A stretch of 64,000 bases of DNA, taken from positions 9,533,872 to 9,597,871 of the forward strand of contig NC_058499.1 in NCBI RefSeq assembly GCF_020382885.2. The letters run 5' to 3'. A program made the translations under genes and the position numbers. Position 1 is the first letter of the stretch; each line of letters opens with the position of its first letter. The notes beneath the pieces were generated by a model. The model saw only the letters and a list, made by a program, of their open reading frames with translations, did not search any database and was not told where the DNA came from. This DNA is from Scatophagus argus. Its lineage: Eukaryota; Chordata; Actinopteri; Scatophagidae. Below are positions 47,396 through 54,722 of this stretch, piece by piece.

Positions 47396-47710
47396 CACAG
47401 CCAGCCGCTGGACTCTCACTCCGCATGACTGATACATAGTCCAGTGTATCTTAACAACACGTTACATAATGAATATGCACCATATTTTTAAAATTCAGGG
47501 CTGTGGTGAGGATTTTTGGCACTATACAAACAGGTCATGCCCCTCCAATACACCAGCTCCAAAAACAAAGTCTTTAAAATCGTTTTTATTAATGTCATTA
47601 GAGCTGCAACCAGTATTAATTAGTCGACCAACAGAAAATTTAGCTTCTCCAGTGTGATGATTTGCTGCTTTTATGTCTTTTATATCAGTATAAAACCGAA
47701 ATTTATTGAG
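47396..47710. repeat. myo5c 3' region with dispersed-repeat remnant
   Basis: The myo5c 3' UTR should begin here; I see no AATAAA. From about 47599 (GAGCTGCAACCAGTATTAAT, then AATTAGTCGACCAAC) the sequence resembles a widespread fish repeat whose middle reads like TTTGGGTTTTGGACTGTTGG. The left breakpoint of the tandem duplication falls inside this element. Family assignment is from memory. Confidence 0.4.
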
Positions 47711-48842
47711 TTTTGGGTTGTTGGCCAGACAATTCATGTAGCAAGTTCCTCACTGTTCAAAAATTCAGAATGATCATTTGATGTCTCTGCGTTATCTGAA
47801 AGCAAAGGGTAGCCAGAAAAGTTTTAGAAAACGGTTAAATCAGTATCACATGATTCTTCTCCTATTTCATTCTTACCCGGTGAATTTCTTCAAGGCTGTA
47901 CCACCAGCTCAAAGAGTAAAGAGCTGTAAAGAGTGTATATTATGCATTCAATGAACACTTCATTCAATCAGGTTGTGTATTCAAAAATACCACATGAATA
48001 CCACATACCACATACCAAACAAACTCAAGATTCAAGTCTTTTCATTGCAGCATTTTATGAATCGTGTATCGTGTTCTTAGTTCTCTTGATCCCAACAGGT
48101 CTGGGGCCGATCAGGTGGAGCCAATTCTGTTGTTATTAGCAGTGGCACTTTTAGCTAAGTTTTCAGTCTCAATAGGATGCAATACAGCACCACGAACAAC
48201 TCTTAACCTGGCAAGATCATCAAGGCCATCGAAGGCCATTGTGTAGAAAAGAATCCTCTTTTTTTTAGTTTATAATGTGTTAAAATAGGGGAAACTGTGA
48301 AAATAATTTGTATGCACTTAAATAATCACAAAGTGAGAGAGACACACCAAACTCGGATTCGGGTAAGATTCCAGGTCCAGCTCGCGCGCCAAACAGCTGC
48401 GCGCCTGGCGCGCTCCCGGCGCTGGACAGGGCGCATTTGGTCGGGTTGGCCGCTTTATTCACGAAACTAGACCCTCAGTGTCATCATGTACGCACAGAGC
48501 AGCGAATAACCACCATCGACTTCGTGAGGACCAAACGCCAAACCAAACGCTCAGGATGGACATAGACACAGTTTCTGAATTATGACCCGTTACTGATAAC
48601 TTGTTAAATAAAACACCAGGAAGTTAGCGGTAAGTCCGTGCAGTACGTGTTAAGTCTGTAAAAACTACCTGTTGTCATAGAAACATGAACCTGTCAATTC
48701 ATTTAAAATGGCAACTATAACTGTAAATGAAACAAACACCAGCCAGAGAGCCTCATTAACAATCAGCCAATTAACGTAGACATGCGCATCACTGAATCCC
48801 ACTGAATCTTGTTTGAGTTCAAAAATCTATAAACATTCTACA

Positions 48843-48852
48843 GCGCATGCGC
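48843..48852 (+). promoter_or_regulatory. NRF1-type palindrome upstream of coiled-coil gene, copy 1
   Basis: GCGCATGCGC, the full consensus for nuclear respiratory factor 1, 283 bases before the ATG at 49126, with a further ATGCGCAT half-site near 48782. TTTAAATA at 48926-48933 is a possible weak TATA element. The palindrome is preserved in copy 2. Confidence 0.5.
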
Positions 48853-49125
48853 GATGGATGGATCACTAACTCTTTATTGCGTCATGAGTGTTTGAAGATC
48901 AAAGCGCAGATGAAAGACCCGAGCATTTAAATAGACCCAGAATTTACTTCAGGTGGACTGCTTTTTGCTTTGAAACAACAAGCTGTTTGAGGCATTTTTA
49001 GGACTTCTCTCTTCTAATCTAAGAGATTGGAAAAATAAGTCATCACAGATAAGTAACCACGTTTTAATTTATTGGCTGATAAATTATCTTGTTTAACGGG
49101 CTGTGAACAACATTCCTAAGTAAGC

Positions 49126-50019
49126 ATGTCGGAAGAAGTAGTGGATCATAAAATAAGTTTAAGTGATATAGAAGAGAGTGTTGAACGTCTGAGGGTCACG
49201 TTGGAGAATGTAGCTGTTGACATGGCCCTACTTCATTCTCTATACAAGGAACAACAAGCAGAGAATCTAAAGCAGTGGGTAGCAATCGATCACCTTGATT
49301 TTCAAATAGGGGCCCCTCAGAAAGAAAGTAGAGATAAAGTGGCCATGCATGAATCTAAAATACCAATGAAACATGAACTCGCAGAAATTGAACAACTGCA
49401 GGAAAAAGTTGAAGGTCTGGAGAAAAAAGTGTCAGCGGGCAAACAGTTGATACTGGCACTGATTGCTCTTCAGCAAAAGGAAGTAGCTCTGAGAAGGGAG
49501 CAAAAGACCCCGGGTAATGAGACTGCTCAACTTGAGGCTTTGTCAGAGAAATGTGAGAATGAGAACAAAAACCTGAGGGCAATTGTACAAGATGTTCAGC
49601 ACCAACTGCTGGAAACAGAGCAGGTAACACAGAGGAACAGTGAGCTCATAACAAAAATGTTAAAGTCACTAACTTGTTATAAGTTGCAGACAGAGGACAT
49701 TTACAGCAAAATAGGTGCTTTGCAACAATCAGTTACCAATCTTACGCAACAGCTGAAGAAACAGGAGACGATATTAGCTGCTGCTGCTGACACTAAAAAA
49801 CAACCACATTCACAGGAGCCAGCATATTATACACTTCTGGACGATGCAGCTGTTGTGGACCAGCCCAGAAGGTGGTGGAATTGTTCTGCCAAAGGTCTAC
49901 TGAAAGCAGGTTTGTGTGTTGGCATTGCGGCTGTAACTACATACGTTGCCACACGTGTTCTGCCCAGTAGCAGTATCAGTATCATAATTCCTGTATTTAT
50001 CCCTGGAGGGAAATTCTAA
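49126..50019 (+). CDS. Unrecognised coiled-coil protein with C-terminal membrane segment, copy 1
   Basis: Intronless ORF of 297 codons. I do not recognise it. Residues about 10-225 are helical and Glu/Lys/Gln/Leu-rich with heptad-like spacing and no catalytic motif. They are followed by a linker containing EPAYYTLLDDAAVV, then RRWWNCSAKGLLK and a hydrophobic stretch at about 257-279. Because this segment is near the C-terminus and no signal peptide exists, a tail-anchored membrane protein is the natural reading. The last 17 or so residues (SSSISIIIPVFIPGGKF) come from sequence absent in copy 2 and add a second hydrophobic patch. The ATG at 49126 is the first in frame. CpG-rich DNA and an NRF1-type site lie upstream. 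Lack of introns suggests a retrocopy origin or a native single-exon gene; expression is unproven. Confidence 0.6.
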   Translation: MSEEVVDHKISLSDIEESVERLRVTLENVAVDMALLHSLYKEQQAENLKQWVAIDHLDFQIGAPQKESRDKVAMHESKIPMKHELAEIEQLQEKVEGLEKKVSAGKQLILALIALQQKEVALRREQKTPGNETAQLEALSEKCENENKNLRAIVQDVQHQLLETEQVTQRNSELITKMLKSLTCYKLQTEDIYSKIGALQQSVTNLTQQLKKQETILAAAADTKKQPHSQEPAYYTLLDDAAVVDQPRRWWNCSAKGLLKAGLCVGIAAVTTYVATRVLPSSSISIIIPVFIPGGKF

Positions 50020-50290
50020 TTCTTATTCTGACATTGCACATGCAGTATTCCCGACCAAGAAAGGAGAAAAGTGCGGAGTATAAAAATAGGATAAAACAAA
50101 AACTAAAATCTCAAAATACAGGTATTTACAATGTATTCAAATTTTTTAAGAAAATTTAAAACCGACTCATAGAACATCCTCAGCATCGTCCTGCAGATGT
50201 TGAAGGACCTCAGCCGCCTCAGAAAGTAGAGGCGGCTCTGGCCCTTTCTGTAGACCATGTCCACGTTCTTGCACCAGTCTAGTTTGTTAG
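49968..50290 (-). mobile_element. Copy-1-specific insertion containing an antisense non-LTR retrotransposon fragment
   Basis: About 320 bases present in copy 1 but not copy 2. On the minus strand 50160-50288 reads open as LINE reverse-transcriptase C-terminal sequence, with the typical KGQSRLYFLRRLRSF and CRTMLRMFYES motifs. The fragment is too short to be active. The insertion supplies the stop codon and last codons of the copy-1 ORF. The alternative, a deletion in copy 2, is less likely because the extra DNA is a mobile element. Confidence 0.7.
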
Positions 50291-50439
50291 AGTGTAGACT
50301 GGCAATATGATAACTTTCCAGTGCCTATCAGACTATGCCTTCCACCAGCTGGAGCCCTAATCCAGCTTCAGATGCACAGGTTTTCATTGCTTCTAAACAG
50401 AACAAACATAACCATCTGATTGACTTTACATGTTCTCTC

Positions 50440-50660
50440 CGTGTCTGTATGGGTTTTCTCCAGGTGCTCTGGTTTCCCCCTACAGACATGTACATTAATT
50501 CTATAAAAAAACAACATTAACAACAATAACAACATAGGGTTCCAACACAAGAGGGTTCTGGCTTTGGGCCCTTTTGTATGTGCATGGGTTTTCACCAGGT
50601 CCTCCAACTTTCCTCCACAGTCCCACAAACATGCACATTAGGTTAAGTGGCTACTGTTGT
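50440..50660 (+). repeat. Two partial dispersed-repeat units downstream of copy 1
   Basis: The phrases GTATGGGTTTTCTCCAGGTG and GTGCATGGGTTTTCACCAGG, each followed by a C-rich tract and ACATG-type sequence, are two successive fragments of the repeat seen more fully at 54468-54722. Both recur downstream of copy 2 at about 53720-53910, so they predate the duplication. Confidence 0.55.
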
Positions 50661-50886
50661 TCACCCTTGAGTCCAAGAGGAGATGTGTGCCAGGTGAACT
50701 GAAATTTTCCCAAGGCTCTCCTGTGATGCATGGTTTCTCGAAAATGGGACTGGTGTACTCTGATTAATAGCGCAGACTTTGGTGATGAAATAAAAACAAA
50801 TAAGCAGTAAAAGAAATAATAGCACAGAGAGTAGGCAGCTGGGTCAGACACAATGGCAGACACTTCCCTGTGTACTTGAACACCAG

Positions 50887-51590
50887 TGTTGTGCACTAGT
50901 AGGAGCAATTTGGTTATTGGCAAAAGAGTCAATGATTATCGGGAATAATCATTAAAGCAAAAATCAGTGTATACTTTATACACATAAATATCAGGGCACC
51001 ACCCTGTCACCAGGGACCAATAGCCAAATTAATTACCGTATTTTTCGGACTATAAATCGCACTTTTTTTCATGGTTTGGCTGGTCCTGCGACTTATACTC
51101 AGGTGCGACTTATATAATAAAATATACACGGCAATTTCACATGTTCACGCTGACAGTCGCGAGGGGGCGCTCTAGGCTGGTGTGCCAGTATCTGCTACGC
51201 TCCAGTACCACCGAAAAAATTAAATTTAAACATAAACTTATAAAGACAACTGAGAAAGACTGAACACAAATGCCCCAAAAAGAAAATCATACCCTGCAGA
51301 TTACAAGCTGCAAGTAGTGAGATATGCAGCCGAAAACGGTAATGGAGCAGCTGAAAGAAAGTTTGTAGTTAGCGAGAAAATTGTGAGGGACTGGCAAAAA
51401 GCGGAGGATACTCTAACTGCAATGAAGAAAACCAAAAAAGCTAATCGTGGGCTAAAAGCTAGGTGGCCACAGCTAGAGGAACAGGGTTTGGTAAACCTAT
51501 GTTGTTTATGTTATAGCTATCTGAATATCTGTTATTGTGTTACATTAACATACCAGACACCCATTCAGCCCGTTGTTCTCTAACCTATTG
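50887..51590. other. Spacer between duplication copies
   Basis: About 700 bases found only once. The first 150 bases are AT-rich with a short hairpin around AATGATTATCGGGAATAATCATT-like sequence near 50930-50955. From about 51036 it is a DNA transposon fragment, described separately. The second duplication copy begins at 51591. Confidence 0.6.
51036..51500 (+). mobile_element. Truncated pogo-like (Tc1/mariner superfamily) DNA transposon
   Basis: It begins with ACCGTATTTTTCGGACTATA and continues with GACTTATACTCAGGTGCGAC, a terminal-repeat sequence I recall from vertebrate elements carrying CENP-B/Brinker-type transposases. Downstream (about 51285-51490) a reading frame gives the N-terminal Brinker-like helix-turn-helix: PADYKLQVVRYAAENGN, then VSEKIVRDWQK, then KANRGLKARWPQLEEQG. 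The expected start ATG is one base out of frame, and the rest of the transposase and right terminus are missing, so it is dead. Confidence 0.65.
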
Positions 51591-52715
51591 TTTTGGGTTG
51601 TTGGCCAGACAATTCATGTAGCAGGTTCCTCACTGTTCAAATATTCAGAATGATCATTTGATGTCTCTGCGTTATCTGAAAGCAAAGGGTAGCCAGAAAA
51701 GTTTTAGAAAACGGTTAAATCAGTATCACATGATTCTTCTCCTATTTCATTCTTACCCGGTGAATTTCTTCAAGGCTGTACCACCAGCTCAAAGAGTAAA
51801 GAGCTGTAAAGAGTGTATATTATGCATTCAATGAACACTTCATTCAATCAGGTTGTGTATTCAAAAATACCACATGAATACCACATACCAAACAAACTCA
51901 ACATTCAAGTCTTTTCATTGCAGCATTTTATGAATCGTGTATCGTGTTCTTAGTTCTCTTGATCCCAACAGGTCTGGGGCCGATCAGGTGGAGCCAATTC
52001 TGTTGTTATTAGCAGTGGCACTTTTAGCTAAGTTTTCAGTCTCAATAGGATGCAATACAGCACCACGAACAACTCTTAACCTGGCAAGATCATCAAGGCC
52101 ATCGAAGGCCATTGTGTAGAAAAGAATCCTCTTTTTTTTAGTTTATATGGTGTTAAAATAGGGGAAACTGTGAAAATAATTTGTATGCACTTAAATAATC
52201 ACAAAGTGAGAGAGACACACCAAACTCGGATTCGGGTAAGATTCCAGGTCCAGCTCGCGCGCCAAACAGCTGCGCGCCTGGCGCGCTCCCGGCGCTGGAC
52301 AGGGCGCATTTGGTCGGGTTGGCCGCTTTATTCACGAAACTAGACCCTCAGTGTCATCATGTACGCACAGAGCAGCGAATAACCACCATCGACTTCGTGA
52401 GGACCAAACGCCAAACCAAACGCTCAGGATGGACATAGACACAGTTTCTGAATTATGACCCGTTACTGATAACTTGTTAAATAAAACACCAGGAAGTTAG
52501 CGGTAAGTCCGTGCAGTACGTGTTAAGTCTGTAAAAACTACCTGTTGTCATAGAAACATGAACCTGTCAATTCATTTAAAATGGCAACTATAACTGTAAA
52601 TGAAACAAACACCAGCCAGAGAGCCTCATTAACAATCAGCCAATTAACGTAGACACGCGCATCACCGAATCCCACTGAATCTTGTTTGAATTCAAAAATC
52701 TATAAACATTCTACA

Positions 52716-52725
52716 GCGCATGCGC
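52716..52725 (+). promoter_or_regulatory. NRF1-type palindrome, copy 2
   Basis: GCGCATGCGC in the same position as in copy 1. In this copy the sequence between the promoter block and the coding region has been removed by deletion. Confidence 0.45.
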
Positions 52726-52964
52726 GATGGATGGATCGCTAGCTCTTTATTGCGTCATCAGTGTTTGAAGATCAAAGCGCAGATGAAAGACCCGAGCATT
52801 TAAATAGACCCAGAATTTACTTCAGGTGGACTGCTTTTTGCTTTGAAACAACAAGCTGTCTATACAAGGAACAACAAGCAGAGAATCTAAAGCAGTGGGT
52901 AGCAATCGATCACCTTGATTTTCAAATAGGGGCCCCTCAGAAAGAAAGTAGAGATAAAGTGGCC

Positions 52965-53666
52965 ATGCATGAATCTAAAATACTAATGAAACATGAACTC
53001 GCAGAAATTGAACAACTGCAGAAAAAAGTTGAAGGTCTGGAGAAAAAAGTGTCAGCGGGCAAACAGTTGATACTGGCACTGATTGCTCTTCAGCAAAAGG
53101 AAGTAGCTCTGAGAAGGGAGCAAAAGACCCCGGGTAATGAGACTGCTCAGCTTGAGGCTTTGTCAGAGAAATGTGAGAATGAGAACAAAAACCTGAGGGC
53201 AATTGTACAAGATGTTCAGCACCAACTGCTGAAAACAGAGCAGGTAACACAGAGGAACAGTGAGTTCATAACAAAAATTTTAAATTCATTAATTTGTTGT
53301 AAGTTGGAGACAGAGGACAAAATAGGTGCTTTGCAACAATCAGTTACCGATCTTAAACAACAGCTGAAGAAACAGGAGACGATATTAGCTGCTGCTGCTG
53401 ACCATTTCAGAAATGAATATTTGGCAAGCACTAAAAAACAACCACATTCACAGGAGCCAGCATATTATACACTTCTGGACGATGCAGCTGTTGTGGACCA
53501 GCCCAGAAGGTGGTGGAATTGTTCTGCCAAAGGTCTACTGAAAGCAGGTTTGTGTGTTGGCATTGCGGCTGTAACTACATTCGTTGCCACACGTGTTCTG
53601 GCCAGTACAGTGTCGACTGGCAATATGATAACTTTCCAGTGCCTATTAGACTATATCTATGCCTAA
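52965..53666 (+). CDS. Coiled-coil/membrane-tail protein, copy 2, N-terminally truncated
   Basis: The frame homologous to copy 1 is open from about 52761 to the TAA at 53664-53666, but the original ATG and first 38 or so codons have been deleted. The first in-frame ATG is at 52965, giving 233 codons. Short upstream ATGs (for example in CAGATGAAAGACC) would compete. It keeps the heptad-rich region, the EPAYYTLLDDAAVV linker and the hydrophobic segment. It has an extra HFRNEYLAS, lacks IYS and ends in TFQCLLDYIYA, perhaps the ancestral C-terminus. No frameshift or stop interrupts it. It may be a truncated functional gene or a young pseudogene; the sequence alone does not decide. Confidence 0.45.
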   Translation: MHESKILMKHELAEIEQLQKKVEGLEKKVSAGKQLILALIALQQKEVALRREQKTPGNETAQLEALSEKCENENKNLRAIVQDVQHQLLKTEQVTQRNSEFITKILNSLICCKLETEDKIGALQQSVTDLKQQLKKQETILAAAADHFRNEYLASTKKQPHSQEPAYYTLLDDAAVVDQPRRWWNCSAKGLLKAGLCVGIAAVTTFVATRVLASTVSTGNMITFQCLLDYIYA

Positions 53667-54311
53667 ACAGAACAAACATAACAGAACAAACATAACCATC
53701 TGATTGACTTTACATGTTCTCTCCGTGTCTGTATGGGTTTTCTCCAGGTGCTCTGGTTTCCCCCTGCAGACATGTACATTAATTCTATAAAAAAACAACA
53801 TTAACAACAATAACAACATAGGGTTCCAACACAAGAGGGTTCTGGCTTTGGGCCCTTTTGTATGTGCATGGGTTTTCACCAGGTCCTCCAACTTTCCTCC
53901 ACAGTCCCAAAAACGAGAGGAGATGTGTGCCAGGTGAACTGAAATTTTCCCAAGGCTCTCCTGTGATGCATGGTTTCTCGAAGATGGGACTGGTGTACTC
54001 TGATTAATAGCGCAGACTTTGGTGATGAAATTAAAAACAAATAAGCAGTAAAAGAAATAATAGTACAGAAAGTAGGCAGCTGGGTCAGACACAATGGCAG
54101 ATACTCCCCTGTGTACTTGAACACCAGACATAAAAACGCCAATACGGTCATTTAAATATTTTTATTTTTATAAAAAATTATATTTTTATTTTTAGAACAG
54201 ATCATCATGTATGACAGTTTAAAATTACCTTATGATGTACAAACCTCCGATAGAAATTTCAGTTTACTGCCACCTCTTTCTGGTAGGCTGCACATAGCAG
54301 CCAAACATCTT

Positions 54312-54467: not shown

Positions 54468-54722
54468 GTTTACATGTTCTCCTGTTCCTGTGCCTGCGTG
54501 GGTTTTCTCCAGGTACTCCGGCTTCCTCCCACAACCCCATAAATATGTACATTACGTTAATTGGCTACTCTATATTGCCCTTAGGTGAGAGTGTGTGGTT
54601 GTCTGTCTTTGTGTGTTGGCCCTGTGATTGACTGGCGACCAGTCCAGGGTGAACCCCGCCTCTTGCCCGCAGTCAGCTGGGATAGGCTCCAGCTCCCCCA
54701 CGACCCTGACGGATAAACGGTA
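54468..54722 (+). repeat. Near-complete copy of a dispersed teleost repeat
   Basis: Contains the phrases TGCCTGCGTGGGTTTTCTCC, TTGGCCCTGTGATTGACTGG, CGACCAGTCCAGGGTGAACC, CAGCTGGGATAGGCTCCAGC and a tail GGATAAACGGTAAAGAAA. I recall this repeat as very abundant in fish. Fragments occur at 23094-23128, 28775-28851, 50440-50660 and 53720-53910. The target-site duplication at 23079-23143 suggests it spreads by retroposition. Confidence 0.65.

Follow-up and report, generated by a model that had tools for sequence, protein, structure and literature searches.

Between the genes myo5c and gnb5, a 64,000-nucleotide stretch of the Scatophagus argus genome (the window; C7:9533872-9597871) carries two direct copies of a unit with a long open reading frame (ORF) for a heptad-rich protein. 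We propose with moderate confidence that one member of a small family of intronless genes for coiled-coil, tail-anchored proteins stands here in two tandem copies, both recent and degraded in part; this member would share a DNA-level origin with a relative on the same chromosome (B530, C7:15080763-15082352), and its product may be a tether or scaffold. The genome searched was that of S. argus itself (571 Mb, 48 contigs). The interest of the locus is moderate and comes through B530, a near-complete gene suited to functional tests; otherwise these would be ordinary decaying paralogues.

Two tandem copies damaged at opposite ends

Repeat comparison and alignment place unit 1 at 47710-50886 and unit 2 at 51590-54127, both on the forward strand, as direct repeats with ~700 bp between them, in agreement with the original prediction of two direct copies of a ~3 kb unit. 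The units differ by 11 of 1269 aligned bases upstream of the ORF, by 16 of 720 in the ORF region and by 30 of 524 downstream of it; sixteen of the downstream differences fall in a 23-base piece for which homology between the units is unlikely, and three lie beyond the unit's end. The earlier claim of an uninterrupted ORF in each copy does not hold as stated: the copies are damaged at opposite ends, the start of copy 2 being deleted and the end of copy 1 transposon-derived.

The ORF of copy 1 (49126-50019, + strand, 297 amino acids) is open as predicted. The chance of an open run of 299 codons is ~5e-9 at window composition, a figure that applies to one given run, without correction for the number of places. 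From this open frame the gene is taken to be intronless. Residues 1-280 are native and residues 281-297 are encoded by a LINE-like transposon insertion of 320 bp (49968-50287, - strand), missing from copy 2; it lies just behind the membrane segment, and residue 281 is insertion-derived by its third base only. The insertion gives 67 match rows in the genome including itself, and its first 194 bases are found in at least 39 other places (40 of the 1662 candidates were scored). In other genomic copies its two parts lie ~380 bp apart, hence the insertion in copy 1 is internally deleted. Its reverse strand (50112-50285) matches PF09004 (E 3.5e-10), presumably the end of a LINE reverse transcriptase. 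PF09004 is named for the ALKBH8 N-terminus yet scores a high-copy transposon peptide here, so that the name may mislead annotation. As the insertion is dispersed, residues 281-297 are not native, and the 297-residue frame should not be annotated as a native protein. Beyond the insertion, a remnant of the native far tail (50289-50396, + strand) contains stops; it is collinear with the tail of B530, with 8 of 24 residues identical (6 of 20000 shuffles are as good, or 280 of 20000 when the first three residues are left out).

In copy 2, the 253 bp that correspond to 48986-49238 of copy 1 are missing, and with them the start codon and ~38 codons. The deletion fuses the leader in frame, resulting in a stop-to-stop frame of 307 codons (52743-53666, + strand). 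The ATG-started frame within it (52965-53666, + strand, 233 amino acids) is without the N-terminus and retains the anchor. Copy 2 has no counterpart of the far-tail remnant of copy 1; a full far tail after the anchor, as in B530, is thus present in neither copy, being interrupted by the insertion and stops in copy 1 and short in copy 2.

Relatives of the window copies and their shared features

The protein of copy 1 gives 11 matches in the genome at E up to 10, namely the two copies, five relatives on C7 and four weak matches (E 0.03 to 4.2) that were not counted as relatives. The five relatives (E 3.9e-7 to 3.9e-4, open frames of 450-749 codons) occupy C7 14.948-14.960 and 15.081-15.084 Mb, 5.4-5.5 Mb from the window. 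A search with the 530-codon frame of B530 at E up to 1 results in 10 rows, all on C7 except one at E 0.92. Judged by the queries used, the family is confined to one chromosome of this genome. The earlier remark that the protein matches no recognised family stands as far as Pfam and solved structures are concerned, but the protein is not without relatives.

Direct reading of 200 kb of C7 around the relatives shows that three of them (A1-A3) are tandem units of ~5.85 kb with 99% identity and 749 codons each; their pairwise differences (4, 7 and 9 bases in 2247) are too few for a selection test. B530 encodes 464 amino acids from its first in-frame ATG and has the N-terminus, coiled coil, anchor and far tail. 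B450 (C7 from 15083088) shows frameshifts by comparison with its relatives, one of them within the anchor. Like the window copies, all five are long intronless coiled-coil frames, and B530 and B450 also have a W..C..KG.LK-like motif followed by a hydrophobic segment. Identity to copy 1 is 27% for B530, 31% for B450 and 34-35% for A1-A3 over ~100 residues. Unlike the window copies, the relatives are longer, B450 is frameshifted, and no hydrophobic tail was seen by eye in any of the three frames of A1, the only one of A1-A3 read in this way; in A1-A3 the anchor was apparently lost. Among titles and abstract openings in the literature, no paper describing a B530-type family was recognised.

Homology to B530 was assessed by tests designed against the composition bias of coiled coils. 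The tail with the W..C..KG.LK motif and hydrophobic segment is homologous in each copy: copy 2 scores 64 against the B530 tail (0 of 2000 shuffles as high, and 0 of 2000 with within-segment shuffling) and copy 1 scores 56 (0 of 2000). The coiled-coil body of copy 1, found at E 3.9e-7 in the genome search, is homologous as well, with a score of 200 against a largest value of 114 in 1000 shuffles that keep the heptad phase.

The heptad-rich body described in the original prediction is supported by a hydrophobic period of 3.5 in residues 81-225 of copy 1 (24 of 5000 shuffles as strong); in B530 the same period is the highest among seven tried, without a shuffle control. The C-terminal hydrophobic segment is likewise present in both copies, at 257-275 in copy 1 (the native segment, score 1.60) and at 190-208 of 233 in copy 2 (1.82), and in B530 at 412-430 of 464 (1.68). 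A single hydrophobic segment near the C-terminus, the feature of tail-anchored proteins, is clear in copy 2 and B530 and less clear in copy 1 alone. An AlphaFold single-sequence model places helices, with low confidence, at residues 12-60, 66-75, 82-125, 132-225 and 258-277.

No Pfam model reaches its cut-off in either copy (best E 0.038 and 0.0048), and solved structures in the PDB give three rows up to E 1, the best at 0.21. Sub-threshold Pfam matches over the coiled coil were not used, namely PF06818 (Fez1) in B530 (E 3.1e-4; 21.7 bits, where the cut-off is 34.4) and PF16331 in parts of A1 and B450 (E 0.0036 and 0.027). Giantin, TMCO5, SLMAP and TRAF3IP3 are tail-anchored coiled-coil proteins; the layout predicted for the window copies and B530 is that of such proteins in general, from which the copies differ in matching no Pfam model at cut-off.

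Each copy also has the predicted CpG-rich block (48350-48560 in unit 1, 52220-52430 in unit 2). In unit 1 it has a GC content of 0.583 and 21 CpG with an observed-to-expected ratio of 1.18, against 0.409 and 0.40 for the window. A palindrome that we take to be NRF1-like, GCGCATGCGCG, was located by pattern scan at 48843-48853 upstream of copy 1 and at 52716-52726 in copy 2 (+ strand). Its pattern GCGCA[AT]GCGCG has 2 matches in 64 kb, i.e. a single site, duplicated, and 0 in 100 shuffles, the pattern having been picked after it was noticed and tested afterwards. The palindrome is common to the window gene and B530, where it also lies upstream, as is the start context CATTCCTAA-GTAAG[CT]ATG. 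A TATA-like sequence, TTTAAATA, was read from the sequence at 48926-48933 in copy 1 and 52799-52806 in copy 2 (+ strand) and may function as such. The leader of copy 1 behind it runs for 195 nt without ATG (82 of 5000 shuffles are equally ATG-free), and in copy 2 the first ATG behind it, at 52965, is internal and in frame.

Coding use, decay and other origins

In the course of events that we favour, a unit consisting of promoter, leader, one coding exon and tail would have arisen by DNA-level duplication from the same stock as B530 (C7 15.08 Mb) and would then have been duplicated in place; afterwards, a deletion would have removed the start of copy 2, and the transposon would have entered copy 1 in its tail. 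The likeliest product, to judge from its predicted features, would be a tail-anchored, self-associating coiled-coil protein that faces the cytosol. Where made, it would oligomerise through the coiled coil, be held to the membrane of the endoplasmic reticulum or nuclear envelope by the hydrophobic C-terminus behind the W..C..KG.LK motif, and act as a tether or scaffold.

Coding use is argued for by the ATG-free leader, by the long open run of copy 1, by the frame, which over the shared ~240 codons is open in both copies, and by two length differences within the ORF (9 and 27 nt), both of which keep the frame. Several observations weigh against our reading. ATGs occur just upstream of the TATA-like box of copy 1 (48854-48910) and would be in the transcript if it starts further upstream, and the leader of B530 contains two ATGs. 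The whole upstream alignment with B530 is weak, 58 of 1000 shuffles scoring equally high. The most hydrophobic 19-mer of copy 1, at 274-292 (1.68), derives largely from the transposon, the native segment from 257 scoring 1.60, and the mean pLDDT of the AlphaFold model is 55.6, with the tail below 50. B530 is, by the present reading, the sole whole member among seven. Finally, of the 15 codons changed between the copies, 13 are nonsynonymous and 2 synonymous, where 75% nonsynonymous is the neutral expectation; the window copies thus show no sign of purifying selection and may be decaying. The changes are unevenly spread: 11 of the 16 ORF differences fall within 135 bp (49612-49746), a clustering reached in 5 of 10000 random placements and most readily explained by gene conversion from another copy. 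Between A1 and B450, 24 codon changes are nonsynonymous and 8 synonymous in 699 bases, which is close to neutral, but B450 is frameshifted.

The chances are about even that both window copies are pseudogenes: paralogues within the B530 family that have decayed, with frames that remain open only because the decay is recent. This explanation overlaps with ours, and the sole difference is that it denies a product. The lost start of copy 2, the insertion that copy 1 carries in its tail, the stops in the far tail of copy 1 and the ratio of 13 to 2 codons all agree with it, but the open shared codons, the frame-keeping gaps and the in-frame first ATG of copy 2 speak against it. Were the copies expressed, they would add to fish genomes an unnamed, fast-changing single-exon family of membrane-anchored coiled-coil proteins; if they are not, they illustrate that tandem copies can remain openly readable while losing opposite ends. 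A further reading seems to us improbable, namely that these unnamed, intronless genes for tail-anchored coiled-coil proteins form a family confined to fish, in which gene birth and death proceed rapidly on a single chromosome, and that their product is a quickly evolving germline tether at a membrane or the nuclear envelope, with a KASH-like layout but unrelated sequence.

In one of the refuting cases considered originally, the gene is a processed retrocopy whose named parent has several exons; this origin would explain the single open frame without introns. It is quite unlikely, as no multi-exon parent is seen in the genome with two family protein queries, and the start context and upstream palindrome shared with B530 are not expected in a retrocopy. 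The common start context, the palindrome and the order of domains speak more for a small family subject to birth and death at the DNA level than for a retrocopy or the ORF of a transposon.

Membership in the KASH-like linkers of the outer nuclear membrane, with a coiled coil, a single C-terminal anchor and a far tail of ~34 residues containing a cysteine, was considered for the layout of the family and for the tails of B530 and B450, which share the C-terminal end ...RPF (B450 in a shifted frame) and in our view resemble KASH tails. A coiled-coil body, one C-terminal anchor and a short far tail as in B530 are also seen in KASH-domain proteins (PF10541), whose sequence ends in a terminal PPPX. 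However, PF10541 identifies six loci in the genome at E 6.5e-6 or better (a seventh is above cut-off only with its neighbours), no family member is among the 35 rows listed, KASH is absent from the matches of the B530 tail up to E 10, and the terminal PPPX is not present in copy 1, copy 2 or B530. With neither profile match nor terminal PPPX, KASH membership was rejected, and a KASH-like identity appears very doubtful.

Least probable is the ORF of a transposon or virus: transposon pieces lie inside and between the units, yet of the 297-residue frame only the last 17 residues are transposon-encoded, the coding body not being dispersed, as only the 320-bp insert is; the upstream 1416 bp match, in 571 Mb, both window units and one weak stretch on C13 (68%, ~190 bases) and nothing else, the protein matches at E <0.001 are seven places, all on C7, and among viral contigs 6 pattern matches include none confirmed as a relative.

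Neighbouring genes and repeats

The predicted placement between myo5c and gnb5 is supported by one exon on each side. The best match of the left DIL exon among solved structures is myosin-Vc. On the right, G-beta-5 chains match one WD exon with 149 bits; among the matches listed, no other G-beta chain of ordinary length exceeds 116, although higher scores go to three entries that contain repeated stretches, one of which is labelled beta-1. In an excerpt of PMC11580623, the position of MYO5C, GNB5 and AP4E1 relative to CYP19B is described as kept across fishes. Rfam gives no match in the whole window at gathering scores.

The spacer between the units contains a fragment with a Brinker-type helix-turn-helix (51254-51580, + strand; PF09607, E 2.2e-8), which we assign to the pogo/Tigger class of DNA transposons; it may possibly have had a role in the duplication. 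A 44-nt piece that resembles a dispersed repeat occurs five times in the window (50441-50484, 50576-50619, 53725-53768, 53860-53903 and 54490-54533). It would explain matches of 27-33 bp found downstream and near distant relatives, which were discounted for this reason.

Beside B450, C7:15085049-15097123 gives 41 rows of a 115-130-bp piece with ~299 bp spacing, a satellite-like array whose piece belongs to the A1 unit. Next to A1-A3, a PQ-rich repeat frame with a trefoil-like stretch at its end (C7:14963542-14964597) resembles, as we presume, a fish egg-coat (zona pellucida) gene.

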